DNA of 64,000 nt, from positions 310,001 to 374,000 of the forward strand of contig NZ_FOHI01000003.1 in the NCBI RefSeq assembly GCF_900111585.1, given 5' to 3'. The DNA is from Nitrosospira multiformis. Its GTDB lineage: Bacteria; Pseudomonadota; Gammaproteobacteria; Burkholderiales; Nitrosomonadaceae. Below the pieces are notes generated by a model. The model was not told the DNA's origin and did no database searches. It saw only the letters and a program-made list of their open reading frames with translations. Both the position numbers and the translations under genes were made by a program. Below are positions 5,594 through 39,946 of this stretch, piece by piece (position 1 is the first letter of the stretch; each line of letters begins with the position of its first letter).

Positions 5594-6328
5594 CTAGCGA
5601 ATTGTACGGGGCTCGATCAGACCCATGGAAAGCGCACGCGATATGGCTTGCTGCCGATTGACAACCCCCAGTTTCTGAATCGCGTTCTGCAGGTGAAAAG
5701 TTACTGTCCGCTCCGAAATCTTGACGATGTTGGCGATTTCCCACCCGGTTTTACCCTCGGCCGCCCATAGCAGACATTCCTGTTCCCTTTCCGTCAGGTT
5801 GGCCTTCTTTACGGGTAGCGGGCCTTTACTGAGAACAATGCGTTGCACCGCCTCATGCAGATAGCAGGTTAATAGCTGGGCTTTAGCCATTGTCTCGAAA
5901 ATGTCATTCTGCGCCTCACGCGACTCCCTGGAGGTAGCCAGGCTCAACATGGCGGCTTCGCCGCGTCCGCCATGAACCGAAAAACTCGCTCCGCTGACCA
6001 GCCCGCAATCCTTGGCCTCGTTTCTTACGCGCGTCTCCCTGCGCCCCTTGAAAATTTCTTTCTTCCATACGATCGGAATAGACGTTCTGGCGCAATGCGA
6101 AACCGTAGGATCGAAATTGGCATAACCTTCCTTGTCGTAATGTTTACGCCATTCCTCCGGATAGCAACTGAGGATGAAGCGATAAGGACGGGTAAGAGAA
6201 GTGTTCACCTGAACACCATACAGAAAATGCTCGAATCCCATTGCGCGAGCAATGGTTGTGGTGGCGCTGTGCAATTCGTCCACCGAATCGCAACTCAGCA
6301 ATGATTCGAATAAGGTCAAATTATCCAT
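5594..6328 (-). CDS. LuxR-family AHL-responsive transcriptional regulator
   Basis: The 244-residue protein has the two-domain layout of quorum-sensing LuxR proteins. The N-terminal autoinducer-binding domain keeps all the ligand-pocket signature residues: W60, Y64, D73, P74, W88, and a Gly in GLVSGASFSVHG. The C-terminal GerE-type helix-turn-helix starts at LTEREQECL and keeps the conserved Glu, Leu and Gly. It should therefore bind an acyl-homoserine lactone and then DNA. No luxI gene is next to it; the only synthase in the window is about 30 kb away (36624), with a lux box in front. Pairing of the two is inference. The gene is convergent with xthA. Confidence 0.88.
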   Translation of the reverse strand: MDNLTLFESLLSCDSVDELHSATTTIARAMGFEHFLYGVQVNTSLTRPYRFILSCYPEEWRKHYDKEGYANFDPTVSHCARTSIPIVWKKEIFKGRRETRVRNEAKDCGLVSGASFSVHGGRGEAAMLSLATSRESREAQNDIFETMAKAQLLTCYLHEAVQRIVLSKGPLPVKKANLTEREQECLLWAAEGKTGWEIANIVKISERTVTFHLQNAIQKLGVVNRQQAISRALSMGLIEPRTIR

Positions 6329-33685: not shown

Positions 33686-35932
33686 GTGAAACAGTTATCC
33701 AGATTCAAGCCCGCATCCCGTTTTTTGGTCCCTATAACCATGTTTTGTTCATGGTTATTGATGCCGTTGCCCGTGAGGGCTCAAGATGCGACGGCCCAAA
33801 ATTCAGTGACGTCTCAAGAGGCAGTGACCACTCAAGACGCAGAGAAAGAAAAGGAAAAAAATGCGACCCTGCCGGAGATCAAAGTGACTACCGGGCGGGT
33901 CCGCCCAGGAACGATCGAGGACGTCGCCCGCACCGGCAGCAAGACAGATACACCCTTGCGTGACATCCCTGCGACAGTCAACGTCGTGCCAGCGTCCGTC
34001 CTTAAGGAGCAGGGTGTCATCGAGATGAATGACGCCATGCGCAATGTCAGCAGCGTGCAGCCACTCATGGGCGGTGGTTACGGATTTGCCAACAGCTTTA
34101 CGTCGCGTGGCCTGGCGCTCAGTTTTTTCCGTGACTATATTCCGGACGGGAACCTTCAGAACAACTATTTCCGCACGATGTACGACATCGAGCGTATCGA
34201 AGTGCTGAAAGGCCCGGGCTCCGCGCTGTTCGGAGTCGCCGGTCCCGGGGGCAGCCTCAACCTGGTGACGAAGCAGCCGCGGTATAACTTCGGGCTGTCC
34301 GCAGGCACCATGCTGGGCAGTTTCGGTACACGCAACGGCTATATGGACGTGACAGGCGCTATCCCTTATCTGCCGAATGTAGCGGGACGTCTCATCGCGG
34401 ATATGGAGCACACGGATGGGTTCCGTGGTCTGGAACGCAATATCGTCGAGGCTTCTCCCAGCTTCACCTGGAGACTGGCGGATGATAAAACGCTACATAT
34501 CGACTACGATCATCGCGAGCTCAAAATCAAGCCCGATAATTATGGGATACTCTTTGACGTCAATTCCAATATCGCCAATGTATCCCGCGACACGCGTTAT
34601 TACAGCCGCTTCAACAAGACAGACCATACCATCAACCGGCTTGGCTTGACGCATCATTGGACCATATCGGACACTTTGAGTATGCGTACCGCGTTCGTCT
34701 ACGATGCCAGAACACTCGCGTTGGTGCGCAATGCCGGCGGCAATCAGGGTGATGGGAATGGGCTGAGCACGGCGCGTACCGCGTACCAGCAGTTCGATAA
34801 TGCTGGGTATACCACACTGCAGAATGAGTTCATATGGAAAACGAGCACAGGCCCTGTCAAGCATACTTTTCTGGGAGGTTTCGAATACAAGAATGTTGAC
34901 ATCAATGCGGCTCGCTCGACCTACGTCTTGCGTGACATAAACATTTTTAATCCGGTGGTGGAAACGTCACTCAACGAAGCAGTCAGGGGTGCACCTACTT
35001 TCGATCGACGTATCAACAGCGACCAGGTCTCGTTTTATGCCCAGGACCAGATCGACCTGAGCGAGCAGTTCAAGATTCGCCTCGGGATCCGCAACGACCT
35101 GGTGCATTACAGCGATAAAGGCTTGCAAAGGGCAAACCCGACAGCGGCTATATCACCCACTCGGTATCGCGAAATAGTGCAAACGAGGTCCATGACTACC
35201 TACTCTACGGGTGGTGTGTATCAGCCCACCCAGAATCTCGCGTTTTACGCAGGTTACAGCACCGGTGCCTTCATCAATCTGTCGACCGAACCGCAAGCGC
35301 TCTCCACGGCACCCGAAACCTCGGATCAGATCGAAGTGGGTACAAAAATGATGCTTTTCGACGGAAAGGCTGATCTCAACGTGGCCCTGTTTCAATCCAG
35401 CCGCAATAATTATTTCGTCACCTTGCCCGGTTCCGGCAACATCCCGACTCCGGATGGGAAGGATCGCACGCGGGGAGTAGAGGTATCGCTTGGCTTTCGC
35501 CCAATTGCCGGATGGAGCATCATCGGTAACGGCGTGGTGATGGATCCGGAAACACGGGCAGGCAATGTTGCCACCAACTCCGTACTTGGCATTACGAGAA
35601 GTGTCTTTGGAACTCGGCCTGTAGGAGTCGCGACCACCATGGGCAATCTGTGGACGACGTACGAGATACAGAGCGGCCTTGCCCGCGGATTGATGTTCGG
35701 GTTCGGGGTCACCTATAAAGGAAATTCGTATGCCGACTCGCTGAATCTTCTCAAGGTGCCGTCTTATGTCGTGTTTGACGCGGCGGCATCTTATCGCATC
35801 AAAAAAGTTGATCTCGCAGTCAACATAAAGAACCTCACGGATAAAACCTACTATACCAATCCGACATTTGCAGGGGCATTGCCTGGAAATCCTCTCAGCG
35901 CCTTCGGTTCCATCCGATTCAATTTCAACTGA
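33686..35932 (+). CDS. TonB-dependent siderophore receptor
   Basis: The 748-residue outer-membrane protein takes up a ferric siderophore with energy from TonB-ExbBD. The start is GTG at 33686 with AGAGG just upstream. A signal peptide (ending about VRAQD) precedes the plug domain, with the usual PEIKVTTGR-like TonB-box region, LRDIPATVNVVPASVLKEQG, and RIEVLKGPGSALFGVAGPGGSLNLVTKQP. A barrel of about 550 residues ends in the Phe-rich FGSIRFNFN, as required for outer-membrane insertion. Its own promoter may lie in the 157 bp gap, where TATAAT stands at 33585. It is followed by a hairpin terminator. Confidence 0.92.
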   Translation: MKQLSRFKPASRFLVPITMFCSWLLMPLPVRAQDATAQNSVTSQEAVTTQDAEKEKEKNATLPEIKVTTGRVRPGTIEDVARTGSKTDTPLRDIPATVNVVPASVLKEQGVIEMNDAMRNVSSVQPLMGGGYGFANSFTSRGLALSFFRDYIPDGNLQNNYFRTMYDIERIEVLKGPGSALFGVAGPGGSLNLVTKQPRYNFGLSAGTMLGSFGTRNGYMDVTGAIPYLPNVAGRLIADMEHTDGFRGLERNIVEASPSFTWRLADDKTLHIDYDHRELKIKPDNYGILFDVNSNIANVSRDTRYYSRFNKTDHTINRLGLTHHWTISDTLSMRTAFVYDARTLALVRNAGGNQGDGNGLSTARTAYQQFDNAGYTTLQNEFIWKTSTGPVKHTFLGGFEYKNVDINAARSTYVLRDINIFNPVVETSLNEAVRGAPTFDRRINSDQVSFYAQDQIDLSEQFKIRLGIRNDLVHYSDKGLQRANPTAAISPTRYREIVQTRSMTTYSTGGVYQPTQNLAFYAGYSTGAFINLSTEPQALSTAPETSDQIEVGTKMMLFDGKADLNVALFQSSRNNYFVTLPGSGNIPTPDGKDRTRGVEVSLGFRPIAGWSIIGNGVVMDPETRAGNVATNSVLGITRSVFGTRPVGVATTMGNLWTTYEIQSGLARGLMFGFGVTYKGNSYADSLNLLKVPSYVVFDAAASYRIKKVDLAVNIKNLTDKTYYTNPTFAGALPGNPLSAFGSIRFNFN

Positions 35933-35950
35933 TTTCAACTGATGGTAGGA

Positions 35951-36003
35951 GAGGTTCAGCTCCCCTGCAGGGAATCATCCTTGCTGGGGAGAAAACCTCT
36001 TTT
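35951..36003 (+). terminator. hairpin terminator after siderophore receptor
   Basis: Two stems, GAGGTT/AACCTC and inside it CTCCCC/GGGGAG, enclose a short loop, and TTTT follows. The structure starts 18 bp after the receptor stop. It fits a factor-independent terminator. Confidence 0.65.
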
Positions 36004-36543
36004 CGCTTGGACATGCTTCTATAAAAACCCGTTCAGTCAGCCCTTCCCTTACTTCTGGTGAGGGCTCGCCAGCACGGCCGCATTCTCACTCCAGAGCCTG
36101 AGATCACCTCGTCTCATCCTGTTTACCACAACGTGCCGAGGATGTGAGCGGACATGTGGTCCGAGGTTCTGAGAGACCTCGCTGTACCCAGCGGCTTGAG
36201 CGTTCGCGCGTGCCATCGGCATGGGTCTCCTAGTACTCCTGTAACAGCTAATCCAGTCTCCGGACCGATGGAAAGATGGGAGAACCATCCTCTGTCGTCC
36301 TCCCTATACCCATTTTTCTTGCTTCCCTGCTGAGGAACAGTCTTTGCGACTGCGCAAAGTTTCGTTTTATGATTTCGTCATTGTGCGGCCCCGTCATCAG
36401 GTTGTAGTGGGTTCGAACGGCCACCTCGACAGAATGCTGCATTTCCCGCTCGTTTTTCCGTAAAAAAACCACCTTGCACGCATCCTCTCCTATCCGCCGA
36501 AACCCGCATCAGGAAAGGATTACAGCCAGTATACCTCGTTCGG
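36004..36543. other. gene-poor region with adjacent small hairpins
   Basis: This 540 bp stretch lies between the receptor terminator and the lux box. Two minus-strand frames (36049-36288, 79 codons; 36248-36472, 74 codons) overlap and carry no recognised domain. At 36162-36181 a perfect CGAGGT/ACCTCG stem is followed at once by CGCTG/CAGCG (36180-36193), which suggests a structured RNA. No group II intron domain V, tRNA or insertion-sequence end was found. I cannot say what it does. Confidence 0.4.
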
Positions 36544-36563
36544 TCCTGTAAGATTTTACAGCT
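36544..36563 (+). promoter_or_regulatory. lux box upstream of luxI
   Basis: This 20 bp site contains the perfect palindrome CTGTAA-GATT-TTACAG (36546-36561) within TCCTGTA...ACAGCT. It matches the classical Vibrio fischeri lux box (ACCTGTAGGATCGTACAGGT) at 15 of 20 positions by my alignment. It ends 60 bp before the luxI ATG. A weak -10 candidate, CATAAC at 36589-36594, stands about 40 bp after the centre of the box. It predicts activation of luxI by a LuxR-AHL complex, a positive feedback loop. Confidence 0.82.
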
Positions 36564-36623
36564 ATTCGGAGGTCCGGTTCCGTTGTTTCATAACGTCGTC
36601 ATCAACCAACGACGAGTGAAAAA

Positions 36624-37247
36624 ATGGGACAGATTATGCTTGCACAACATGGCAATGGTTCTCTCGATAAACGGGCCGCAATGGGAATGTATCGGCTGAG
36701 GCACGAAGTTTTTCACGACAGGCTCGGCTGGGAAGTAACCACGGATAACGGGATGGAGCATGACGAGTTCGATCTTGCAGATCCCGTATATGTTCTGGCA
36801 AAAGGGGATGAGGGAGATGAAGACGAGGTGCTCGGTTGCTGGCGATTGCTTCCCACCCAAGGACCCTACATGTTGAAGGATACTTTTCCGCAACTTCTGC
36901 ACGGGCAGCCTGCGCCGCAGCAATCGGATGTCTGGGAATTGAGCCGTTTTGCCGTCATGGTCCCCAAATATGAGAGTGCCGGTTTCGGTTTTAGCGAGAT
37001 TCCGGTAAAAATGATGCAGACCTTGTTTCTCTTCGCACGCCATAACAAGATAAAGCGCTATGTAACCGTTACCACCGTCGCTGTGGAGAGACTGATACGC
37101 AAGCTTGGCGTGAACGTTTCCAGGTTGGGCGCACCGATCAAAATCGGTCGGGTTTTGACGGTCGCATGCTATATCGAAATCGATGCAATCACCGAATTCG
37201 CCCTTTTTGGGATGCTCCCGGAAAACGCACAAAGGAAGGCCGCATGA
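36624..37247 (+). CDS. acyl-homoserine lactone synthase (LuxI family)
   Basis: The enzyme makes an acyl-homoserine lactone from S-adenosylmethionine and an acyl carrier. The 207-residue protein keeps the full LuxI catalytic set: R26, F30, W36, D47, D50, R74, E105 and R108 (segments MYRLRHEVF, GWEV, EHDEFD, CWRLL, WELSRFAV). It has the usual length. A lux box stands 60 bp upstream. The next gene overlaps its stop by ATGA. No luxR is adjacent; the LuxR-type gene lies near position 6000. Nitrosospira species are reported to make AHLs with homologues of this enzyme. The acyl chain cannot be read here. Confidence 0.93.
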   Translation: MGQIMLAQHGNGSLDKRAAMGMYRLRHEVFHDRLGWEVTTDNGMEHDEFDLADPVYVLAKGDEGDEDEVLGCWRLLPTQGPYMLKDTFPQLLHGQPAPQQSDVWELSRFAVMVPKYESAGFGFSEIPVKMMQTLFLFARHNKIKRYVTVTTVAVERLIRKLGVNVSRLGAPIKIGRVLTVACYIEIDAITEFALFGMLPENAQRKAA

Positions 37248-37693
37248 ATATTCTACTGGTTGGAGAGAGACAAGATACGCGGCAGCTCCTGCAGCTGCTG
37301 CTTGAAAAATCCAAGCACAGGCTGGAGCGAAAAACGCTGGACAGCTTCCCGGAGCCGGACCTGGAGGCCTATGACATGGTTCTGGTCGACGGCGCAGTAG
37401 ACGATTGCACCCAGCAGGTGAACCTGGTGCAATGGGTGCGGGAAGCCAGACGGCGCTATCCTCATTTGCCGGTAGCGGTCATGAATAACGTCGGACCAGA
37501 CGAGGCTTCCGAGAATGAATCGGCTTGCAGCACGATGCATACCTGCGGTGTATTCGAGTCGGGTAATGGCGTCCTGAACATGCGCTGTAGATTGCGTGAA
37601 ATCGCCTTGGGAGAAACTGCTGCCTTGGTGCGCGAGGATTGCCAGCGGCCCCCATTCGAGCCGGTTACGTTTGAGTATTCGGGAAGGGGATGA
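37244..37693 (+). CDS. degenerate receiver-domain protein coupled to luxI
   Basis: The 149-residue protein starts MNILLVGERQD and has a receiver-like pattern of alternating strands and helices. The third strand is DMVLVDGAVDD with the putative phospho-acceptor D49, and the fourth is LPVAVMNNVG. The acidic pair after the first strand is replaced by ER, the Ser/Thr after strand four by Asn, and no conserved Lys is seen in strand five, so phosphorylation is unlikely. I call it a pseudo-receiver. The ATG at 37244 overlaps the luxI stop, so translation is coupled. The C-terminus is unrelated to known output domains. Confidence 0.7.
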   Translation: MNILLVGERQDTRQLLQLLLEKSKHRLERKTLDSFPEPDLEAYDMVLVDGAVDDCTQQVNLVQWVREARRRYPHLPVAVMNNVGPDEASENESACSTMHTCGVFESGNGVLNMRCRLREIALGETAALVREDCQRPPFEPVTFEYSGRG

Positions 37694-37793
37694 AATGCGG
37701 CTGGACTATCAATAGAACGAGGAAAGGAGGCGAAGGCTTTCGAGGAATTTAATAGTTCATAAAACTTTCATCGTACTGCCATCAGTCGCAGGT

Positions 37794-37807
37794 AGCCTGT
37801 ACAAGCT
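37794..37807. repeat. 14 bp near-palindrome upstream of the small ORFs
   Basis: AGCCTGTACAAGCT is palindromic at 12 of 14 positions (AGCYTGTACARGCT), 50 bp before the first small ORF. It shares the TGTAC core with lux boxes but lacks the rest. It may be an operator for the small-ORF pair or chance. Confidence 0.35.
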
Positions 37808-37856
37808 GACAAAGGTTTCAAATGATATTGGCTGGATTGCTCAAAGGAGGCAAATC

Positions 37857-38090
37857 ATGAAATCCCGGCTACCTGCATTAGTGAACGCAATCTCACCGCC
37901 AAGCGCGGTCATCATGAATTTTGTTCGGCAGGGAATTGCCCAACCGATCGGTGAAGGTTCTGCTGCTGATATAACTCCCACCGGAGGGGCAGAGTATGCT
38001 GATACCGGTGTTTCGGCTACCTTGCCCAGCTTTGAAGCTCCGGTGCTCCCTGTGTTTACACGTCTATCCGGATCCAGGAGGAGTGTATGA
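37857..38090 (+). CDS. small protein of unknown function (QS locus, first)
   Basis: This is a 77-codon ORF with a very strong ribosome binding site, AAAGGAGG, 7 bp before the ATG. The product has a short hydrophobic stretch (residues 10-24), then a Gly/Thr/Ala-rich middle (GEGSAADITPTGGAEYADTG) and a basic end (LSGSRRSV). No known family is recognised and no Cys is present. Its stop overlaps the start of the second small ORF by ATGA, which strongly supports translation of both. It lies 163 bp after the pseudo-receiver on the same strand, downstream of luxI. Confidence 0.6.
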   Translation: MKSRLPALVNAISPPSAVIMNFVRQGIAQPIGEGSAADITPTGGAEYADTGVSATLPSFEAPVLPVFTRLSGSRRSV

Positions 38091-38287
38091 GTCTGGCTGA
38101 TGTAATATTGCAACCATTCCTTTCCCTGACATCCGCCGATGTGGCGGAGCAAGATCCCCTTTCTTCATTGACCGAATTCTACCAATTCGATCAAGGCGAT
38201 CAGGACCTGGATGAGGACGAAAGTGAAATTGACCTGATGATTCAGCTAAGCGGAATGGTTTACAGCCCTGAGAAAGGCGAGGAGTAA
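38087..38287 (+). CDS. small acidic protein of unknown function (QS locus, second)
   Basis: This is a 66-codon ORF that begins inside the stop of the preceding small ORF (ATGA overlap), with AGGAGG 5-10 bp upstream. The middle is strongly acidic, with FDQGDQDLDEDESEIDLM, and the ends are mildly hydrophobic. No domain, signal peptide or Cys is seen. A stem-loop follows 25 bp after the stop. The pair looks like a coupled two-gene cassette; an adaptor or antitoxin-like role can only be guessed. Confidence 0.62.
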   Translation: MSLADVILQPFLSLTSADVAEQDPLSSLTEFYQFDQGDQDLDEDESEIDLMIQLSGMVYSPEKGEE

Positions 38288-38311
38288 GGCAATCTGCATC
38301 GCTTTTAACCG

Positions 38312-38338
38312 GGAATGATTCCAGGAGGAATCAATTCC
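38312..38338. terminator. hairpin between convergent genes
   Basis: GGAATGATTCC and GGAATCAATTCC, separated by AGGA, form an imperfect stem with one bulged base. It lies between the stop of the small acidic ORF and the stop of the ferritin-like gene, so it can end transcription from both sides. No clear T-run follows on either strand. Confidence 0.4.
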
Positions 38339-38345
38339 TGCGTAC

Positions 38346-38807
38346 CTAACTCTTGGGCGTTTCGTACACGCCTGTTTTTCCCGTTCTCCGCAACATCTTG
38401 TTGACTTCGTCCGCATGCATTTCCTCTTCGACGACAAGGCCACGCGCATAATCCTCCAGCAGCACTGACTTGCCCTGGGTCAGCTCCAGCAGTTCGTAGT
38501 AGGCGGTGAGCGACTGGTTCTCATGCTCCAGCGATTCCCGCAGAATATCGCCGATGTCATGCACGTGCGTTTCCAGCAGAGATCCGATCCCAAGCGAAGG
38601 ATAGCCTCCCAGTAACGTGACGAGTTCTCCGGCTCTATGCGCGTGGAGCAATCCTTCTTCAGCCTGCTTCTTGAGCCATTCCACCACTGGAATCCGGTTG
38701 TAGCCGAAGACCATCAATGAATAATGCGTGTATCGCACTACTCCGGCAAGCTCGAGCTCCATGATTCGGTTCAGCAGCGCGATCGCCTTGTCTTTATCGA
38801 AATCCAT
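38346..38807 (-). CDS. ferritin-like protein (bacterioferritin family)
   Basis: The 153-residue protein is a four-helix bundle with diiron ligands visible: MELELAGVVRYTHY (first Glu), EEGLLHAH (ExxH), EHENQSL and EEEMHADE (ExxH). It is shorter and more divergent than the bfr product at 29443, and no heme Met is evident at the matching place. ATG at 38807 with AAAGG 8 bp upstream is preferred over a GTG at 38816. The peroxiredoxin gene lies directly upstream on the same strand (51 bp gap), so the two may form an oxidative-stress or iron-detoxification unit. Confidence 0.78.
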   Translation of the reverse strand: MDFDKDKAIALLNRIMELELAGVVRYTHYSLMVFGYNRIPVVEWLKKQAEEGLLHAHRAGELVTLLGGYPSLGIGSLLETHVHDIGDILRESLEHENQSLTAYYELLELTQGKSVLLEDYARGLVVEEEMHADEVNKMLRRTGKTGVYETPKS

Positions 38808-38858
38808 GTGTTTCACCTTTATGGTTACAGGAGTTCAAGGAGGTACAGGTTTGTTGCG

Positions 38859-39461
38859 TCAGAGCGCTTCGCCATGGCTTTCCAGATATTCCGCCACACC
38901 CTCGGGGCTGGCTTTCATTCCCGGTTCACCTGCTTTCCACCCAGCCGGACACACCTCTCCATGGCTTTCGTGAAATTGCAGGGCATCGACCATGCGCAGC
39001 ATTTCGTCCACATCACGCCCCAGGGGCAGGTCATTAACGACTTCATGACGCACGATGCCGTTTTTATCTATCAGGAAAGAGGCGCGCAGGGCAACGTGGT
39101 CCGGGTGAGCAATGCCGTAAGCATGCATGATGTCTCCCCCTACGTCGGATACCAGCGTGATTCCCACCGGACCAATGCCGCCTTTGTCGACAGGGGTGTT
39201 GCGCCAGGCGTAGTGGGTGAACTGGGAATCCACCGAGACTCCAATCACTTCCACATTGCGCTTGTGAAACTCCTCTGCGCGATGCGAGTGCGCGATGATT
39301 TCGGAGGGACAGACAAAGGTGAAATCCAGGGGATAAAAGAACAATACGGCATATTTGCCAGCAATTTGCGCATGAAAGTTGAAGTTGTCATTGAAGGTGC
39401 CATCTGCTAGAACAGCAGGTTTGGTGAAGTCGGGTGCAGGGTGTGTAACAAGCACTGCCAT
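38859..39461 (-). CDS. 2-Cys peroxiredoxin (AhpC/TSA family)
   Basis: It reduces hydrogen peroxide and alkyl hydroperoxides in the cytoplasm. The 200-residue protein has the peroxidatic C51 in FYPLDFTFVCPSE and the resolving C171 in GEVCPAGW, so it is a typical 2-Cys enzyme that works as disulfide-linked dimers and decamers. A conserved Arg lies in RASFLIDKNG. It is followed by the ferritin-like gene in the same direction. No AhpF-type reductase gene is nearby, so thioredoxin is the likely reductant. The promoter lies in the 485 bp upstream stretch. Confidence 0.92.
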   Translation of the reverse strand: MAVLVTHPAPDFTKPAVLADGTFNDNFNFHAQIAGKYAVLFFYPLDFTFVCPSEIIAHSHRAEEFHKRNVEVIGVSVDSQFTHYAWRNTPVDKGGIGPVGITLVSDVGGDIMHAYGIAHPDHVALRASFLIDKNGIVRHEVVNDLPLGRDVDEMLRMVDALQFHESHGEVCPAGWKAGEPGMKASPEGVAEYLESHGEAL

Positions 39462-39946
39462 CTTGAATCTCCTTATTCATCATGAATCATGAAAACTGCC
39501 ACATCTTCCGCCACATTTCGTTGCACCCTGGACATGCCACCTTCCTGCTGTTGCTTCTGCTTTTGAGGAGGGAAACAGAACAGCAGTAGTAGATAGGAAG
39601 AACGATGAGGCGCTGCGGCAAAAAAGAAAGACCCGAAATTGAAAGACAGAGGCCAATCCGGCTAACGAGACAGTGTTGCCTATAAATTCCATTTCTATCC
39701 AGGCACTGATCTGATCGCCTCTATCCCCTTATCGATCGGGATCAACACGACCTTTATAGCTCTGTTTCAATTTTCTTTCTGTGCGGCAGCCCGCATACAT
39801 GGCAAATTCTCCCTCTTATGGCAGATTGTGATGGCTGGGATTGGGTGATTCATTACACCAGGGCAGGAAGACAGACTTGCATCCATTAAACTTTCAATTT
39901 CTGTTGAAATGTACAGAGCGGAACCAGTCAAATATGGGGGGTGATA
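39462..39946. other. intergenic region upstream of peroxiredoxin
   Basis: This 485 bp stretch lies between the peroxiredoxin start and the stop of the Crp/Fnr gene, and must contain the peroxiredoxin promoter. An inverted pair GATCG...CGATC occurs near 39714-39740. I looked for the OxyR pattern of ATAG/CTAT at ten-base spacing and found only partial matches. No gene or RNA is evident. Confidence 0.45.

Follow-up and report, generated by a model that had tools for sequence, protein, structure and literature searches.

A receiver-like gene behind luxI and two neighbouring small genes in Nitrosospira multiformis: one quorum-sensing operon or two units?

How far does a quorum-sensing operon reach when unfamiliar genes follow the signal synthase? 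The question is raised by a locus in a 64,000-nucleotide (nt) stretch of Nitrosospira multiformis DNA, here the window (NZ_FOHI01000003.1, positions 310,001–374,000; its genome is G000 and its locus W). In it luxI is followed by a receiver-like gene, rec, and by two small genes, sA and sB. The initial annotation, made from the letters alone, joined all four in one operon behind a lux box, under control of acyl-homoserine lactone (AHL). A different arrangement seems to us slightly better than an even bet: two neighbouring units, one a quorum-sensing-induced luxI–rec pair in which rec would be a modulator resembling CinS (encoded beside the AHL synthase gene cinI), the other an sA–sB unit behind a PhoB-type promoter. 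A conserved promoter-like block lies between rec and sA, so that "one operon behind the lux box" is firm only for luxI and rec. The initial annotation thus saw a real arrangement and drew one boundary too wide.

The luxI–rec pair

The luxI product passes the curated cut-off of PF00765 with ease (120.7 versus 24 bits), is the single PF00765 match in its genome, and is predicted to be a LuxI-type AHL synthase. A search of 125 genomes of the family found luxI in 30: all 23 genomes of the genus (Nitrosospira/Nitrosovibrio; G000 and G094–G115), four of a sister genus, g4, and three of g3 (G013, G017, and G018). The last three were excluded for weak, partial matches. The comparison therefore covers 27 luxI loci, namely the window and 26 others (23 of the genus, 4 of g4).

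All four open reading frames of the initial annotation lie where it placed them (Table 1), and its luxI–rec unit, with an unrecognised partner behind a lux box, proves more widely conserved than the window alone could reveal: rec directly follows luxI in 27/27 loci. The ATGA overlap of the two genes is confirmed, and measures 4 nt in 25 loci; L043 has a 1-nt gap, and the overlap in L057 is unmeasured because luxI is broken there (draft genome G108 carries it in two pieces). The lux box is likewise confirmed as a perfect palindrome, and CTG-N10-CAG stands upstream of luxI in every locus except L052 (26/27). The ratio of nonsynonymous to synonymous substitution rates (dN/dS) is at most 0.08 for luxI over 11 pairs and 0.03–0.17 for rec over 12; rec is therefore under strong purifying selection. 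Together these features suggest that luxI and rec are likely co-transcribed, as one conserved quorum-sensing unit.

The pair extends beyond the genus. A named collection yields 22 rec loci, comprising Nitrosospira, Nitrosovibrio, and Nitrosomonadaceae records plus Candidatus Nitrotoga sp. M5, and in an even sample of the order (399 genomes) four carry rec, namely G425, G253, and two members of the genus. Both of the former, like Ca. Nitrotoga sp. M5, have rec paired with luxI. The pair is thus spread over Nitrosospira/Nitrosovibrio, g4, Ca. Nitrotoga, and one further family. Read by eye, the order in Ca. Nitrotoga sp. M5 and G425 (L139 and L153) is luxR–luxI–rec followed by a long PAS/GGDEF-like gene, and that in g4 is luxR–luxI–rec followed by a receiver-kinase-like gene; tblastn also places luxR immediately upstream of luxI in g4.

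The initial annotation implied that the operon lacks the usual luxR. At the level of the genome luxR is not missing: an AHL receptor gene is present on the opposite strand, not adjacent to luxI but 30.3 kb from it (Table 1). Its product is the likely partner of the lux box. In the mechanism proposed here, this LuxR together with AHL would activate the lux box, and luxI and rec would be produced together through their 4-nt overlap.

Six more near-perfect lux boxes occur in G000 (C13:88936, C14:273036, C10:161162, C21:93251, C14:28201, and C14:445746; L111–L116). Among the genes near them are one with a tyrosinase domain, one for a sigma-54 activator, a divergent pair of PAS-GGDEF-EAL and CheW genes, and a PAS histidine kinase gene accompanied by a receiver gene; they are a candidate quorum-sensing regulon. 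An Rfam scan of window positions 35500–39500 gave 0 matches at E <= 1, and a consensus sigma-70 scan was uninformative (1 site versus 1.8 expected).

Table 1. Features of the locus, in window coordinates
Feature	Position	Strand	Basis
luxR, AHL receptor	5594..6328	-	Autoind_bind 148.5 bits, GerE 69.9 bits
lux box CCTGTAAGATTTTACAGCTA, before luxI	36545..36564	+	perfect CTG-N10-CAG palindrome
luxI, predicted AHL synthase, 207 amino acids (aa)	36624..37247	+	PF00765 120.7 bits
rec, putative stand-alone pseudo-receiver-like protein, 149 aa	37244..37693	+	4-nt ATGA overlap with luxI
Promoter-like block upstream of sA, with Pho-box-like CAT repeats of 11 bp and TAGCCT after them (37793-37798)	37756..37798	+	conservation
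Ribosome site AAAGGAGG of sA	37843..37850	+	sequence
sA, 77 aa, with a conserved start and a variable middle but without the KKRFG tail of other species	37857..38090	+	
Ribosome site AGGAGGA of sB, within the end of sA	38076..38082	+	sequence
sB, small acidic protein, 66 aa	38087..38287	+	conserved motif, 22/23 genus genomes

The block before sA and the small-gene pair

The leaders of sA were compared across 22 genomes. Within the block the major-base frequency averages 0.84, whereas the flanks average 0.54 (upstream) and 0.65 (downstream). CAT recurs at 11-bp spacing in the consensus, TTCATAAAACTTTCATnGnAACGCCATCT, and a TAGCCT-like hexamer is present in 22/22 leaders (exactly TAGCCT in 13). 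In the G100 leader (L034) about 19 nt (ACGAGCTGACAAAGGTTTC) are duplicated in tandem behind TAGCCT.

Several observations point to PhoB. The genome encodes it (TIGR02154, 357.3 bits versus a cut-off of 296.2). Like the block, Pho-regulon promoters of the same genus (pst, porin) have TGTCAT-like direct repeats of 11 bp and a TAGCCT-like hexamer; TGTCAC-type repeats occur in 21 of the 30 pstC loci scanned. They differ in that the sA repeats are mostly TTTCAT, that the third repeat is placed differently from that of pst, and that TAGCCT follows (within 30 nt) only 6 of the 21 pst-type sites. When a matrix built on the sA sites was applied to the window plus 18 further loci, the window site came first and a porin promoter, at 9.8 bits, second; the porin is of the phosphate-selective type (Porin_O_P, 196 bits), and the locus ranked third reaches -0.4. 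A repeat pattern built from the window site gives 52 matches versus 16 for the reversed control, although the first rank of the window site for that pattern is circular, because the pattern was built from it.

Other results weigh against this assignment. The strict three-repeat pattern is found in only 11/22 sA leaders (a looser 11-bp pattern in 19/22). The sA matrix misses the pst locus L096 (best -14.3) and the C14-site locus L094 (best -7.3). A matrix trained on nine distinct pst, porin, and C14 sites scores the window site at 7.5 bits, which 10/200 shuffles of that window stretch also reach; the controls (27 stretches before luxI and 30 beside epsA) reach 8.1, and just 9/22 sA sites beat all 57 of them. 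(Some of the epsA controls are not true upstream stretches, because minus-strand epsA loci were not turned round.) Because the independent matrices give this mixed support, the promoter is called PhoB-type, and we infer PhoB as its most likely activator: sA and sB would probably be switched on at low phosphate by PhoB or by a close relative in the OmpR/PhoB family.

Most pairs show sB under purifying selection, with dN/dS of 0.11–0.78 over 12 pairs and below 0.25 in 8 of them. For sA this does not hold in the window's own clade (W, L032, L033, L034, and L035). Elsewhere sA gives 0.21–0.71 (8 pairs); among the clade members with 77-aa products (W, L032, and L033) it gives 0.99, 0.50, and 1.50, and between the short-sA loci L034 and L035 it gives 0.79, all from small counts of changes. 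The middle of sA varies in length and sequence, and 16/22 proteins end in KKRFG; this tail is missing from L046 and from all five members of the window's clade. (The L046 frame, in G094, has an inner stop.) A profile of sA detects 20/23 genus genomes, missing G115 and also G100 and G101, where sA has only 20 aa; against NCBIfam, neither sA nor sB has a credible match. In the window's clade, then, sA has lost its tail and evolves near neutrality, the ratios being rough.

The ATGA overlap of sA and sB, with its AGGAGG-type ribosome sites, is as described in the window, yet the overlap is peculiar to the same clade: W, L033, L034, and L035 have it, as does L032 if an upstream ATG is used. In the other 17 genomes the script-chosen starts of sB lie 41–360 nt past the sA stop; only L052 departs from this, at -32 and with an uncertain start. 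The overlap therefore seems to be the product of a deletion in the window's clade rather than an ancestral design.

Has sA then ceased, in this clade, to be a working protein, serving mainly as a short leader whose translation supplies sB with ribosomes? The chance is close to even, falling a little short. The near-neutral ratios, the missing tail in all five members, the 20-aa remnant in two, and the coupling of the sA stop to the sB start in this clade only are what such a leader would leave behind; on the other side, all five retain the MKxRLPA start and the strong ribosome site, and the changes in sA are few enough to keep the ratios rough. Under the two-unit arrangement sA, conserved at its ends, would be a flexible protein that is undergoing decay in the window's clade.

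The single AHL-controlled operon of four genes, with sA and sB as quorum-sensing outputs or modulators, is unlikely, though it has points in its favour. The four genes share a strand, and sA and sB remain beside luxI–rec in 22/23 genus genomes. Moreover, the rec–sA interval held no terminator-like site in the 22 genomes (0.7 expected in shuffles), which also counts against two units, and read-through from luxI–rec may therefore occur; of the promoter and terminator that the initial annotation had imagined as isolating the small frames, a promoter-like element was found and a terminator was not. Against a single operon stands the block itself. So does G115 (matched to Nitrosovibrio tenuis Nv1), the one departure from the four-gene synteny within the genus, which keeps luxI and rec and has lost both sA and sB. 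Finally, sB was not found in g4, where luxI–rec is kept. (No sA or sB was seen at the Nitrotoga-type loci, read by eye and covered by profile search through the order sample only.) Membership of the small genes in an AHL-controlled operon is thus unsupported, and the two-unit arrangement is preferred.

What rec and sB may be

The first 80–90 residues of rec look receiver-like. The top PDB profile matches are the receivers of RpfC, CheY, and FleR (weak, E 0.004–0.04), and the top fold match of the predicted model is again a receiver, also weak (E 2.6e-3; template-modelling (TM) score 0.51 by target length; predicted local distance difference test (pLDDT) 55). In this low-confidence model the order of the first six strands and helices is that of a receiver, with pLDDT by block of roughly 60–80 over residues 1–80. 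Asp49 is invariant (19/19 aligned rows); the acidic-pair position reads Gly-Glu-Arg, the Thr/Ser position is Asn81, and the aligned part has no Lys counterpart. The aspartate position is retained, in short, and the other phosphorylation residues of receivers are not. Atypical receivers, such as the amino-terminal domains of GlnR and FleQ, are likewise receiver-like without the full residue set; unlike them, rec stands alone, tied to luxI, and no DNA-binding domain was recognised in it. Its carboxyl-terminal half is conserved but matches no Pfam or NCBIfam family.

These likenesses make the receiver reading a weak one, and several results count against it. The mean pLDDT of 55 is low; the rec profile against three true receivers of the same genome gives E 0.11 and a probability of 0.5 percent; and PF00072 has no match at E <= 1 for the window's rec, nor does it appear in the family lists of 19 members. 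Flavodoxin_5, whose general fold resembles that of receivers, matches 13/19 members (best E 4.9e-5), more than any receiver-type family; GlnR_1st and FleQ match 8/19 and 3/19, weakly. It might follow that rec is a flavodoxin-like-fold protein with a different task and no receiver kinship, an idea we regard as improbable given that the best fold and PDB profile matches are receivers and that the model, for all its low confidence, keeps receiver order.

For sB, a protein family is evident. The gene, whose product carries a motif around ESEIDLMIQLSGMV and near DEEESEVDLMIQLSGMV, is found in 22/125 family genomes, all of them within the genus, and in wider samples it appears in 4/399 genomes of the order (two outside the family) and in 1/369 genomes of the class (the window's own). 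Six additional copies are distributed over five genomes. Pfam returned no credible match for 15 sB relatives, and the structural model shows two short helices (pLDDT 62; predicted TM score 0.24). No sA-type promoter was found at the copies elsewhere (L147–L152; best -7.7 bits).

Three of the six extra copies lie near a gene for an EpsA-type regulator. In G107 the copy directly precedes epsA (TIGR03020, 260 bits) and an undecaprenyl-phosphate glucose transferase gene; in G106 it directly precedes an epsA fragment at the contig end; and in G099 it lies 2.5 kb before an EpsA-like gene (153.8 bits, below the cut-off of 170). The other three have no EpsA nearby among the matches listed. EpsA-type regulators have multiplied in the genus, with at least 75 matches over the cut-off in its 23 genomes; from that number, three of six copies near one are unlikely by chance, with the caveat that the G106 and G107 copies may share descent. 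As the usual gene before epsA, sB was rejected: 30 other epsA loci (about 3.7 kb each, both strands) contain no sB motif. From its neighbours we guess that sB might be a small acidic adaptor, probably touching a regulator of the EpsA/LuxR kind.

Outside the family, an sB relative in G146 (L226:5327-10109) directly precedes an MbnB/TglH/ChrH-type gene (373 bits), in a region that also holds DUF2063 and DUF2282 genes; a weaker relative in G139 lies beside SMP-30 and DUF2282 genes. Although the G146 neighbours could mark sB, and perhaps sA, as precursor or helper peptide of a ribosomally synthesised and post-translationally modified peptide system, this is very improbable, since no such enzyme was recognised among the open reading frames adjoining sB in the window, the aligned sB sequences have no conserved cysteine, and most copies are located elsewhere than beside such genes.

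Comparable systems and implications

The nearest parallel in gene arrangement is cinI–cinS of Rhizobium leguminosarum, in which a small modulator gene reportedly sits directly behind the AHL synthase gene, as rec does behind luxI; CinS acts by binding the regulator PraR (PMC4149787). It has 67 residues (PMC3356288), against the 149 of rec, which is receiver-like. The likeness drawn here is one of gene arrangement; by this analogy rec may work like CinS, most likely by contacting a regulator or kinase, whose activity it would modulate according to cell density. A second case is cepI–BCAM1871 of Burkholderia cenocepacia, where BCAM1871 modulates AHL activity; it is a 254-aa protein with weak likeness to another enzyme family, and not receiver-like (PMC3356288). 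A nitrifier, Ca. Nitrotoga fabula, has a LuxI/LuxR-type system, and the passages of its description that were consulted mention no receiver-like gene behind luxI (PMC6050957), whereas the two other Nitrotoga-type loci in this study have luxR–luxI–rec. A literature search found no paper combining "pseudo-receiver" with "homoserine lactone synthase", and the passages of PMC8553950, PMC4964001, and PMC5960693 reached by term searches make no mention of a rec-type gene. By analogy, then, luxI–rec would be a conserved quorum-sensing unit of the cinI–cinS kind with a new sort of partner.

A bolder synthesis is tentative, and rather doubtful. The locus could be where nitrifiers, in a way not described before, link quorum sensing with phosphate starvation and with the control of exopolysaccharide: a LuxI-coupled pseudo-receiver would stand beside a PhoB-driven pair of new small proteins, namely sA, a tether whose middle is hypervariable and whose ends (MKxxLPAL ... 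KKRFG) are conserved, and sB, an acidic protein serving LuxR-type regulators, EpsA among them, as adaptor.

To our knowledge, quorum sensing in nitrifiers has few known targets. The rec product, tied to luxI across several nitrifier lineages, offers such work a concrete protein, and the view of the small-gene pair as no more than outputs of quorum sensing, likely a misreading, is corrected. If the arrangement proposed here is true, a phosphate-type promoter beside a signal gene would tie nutrient state to signalling in bacteria of soil nitrification.
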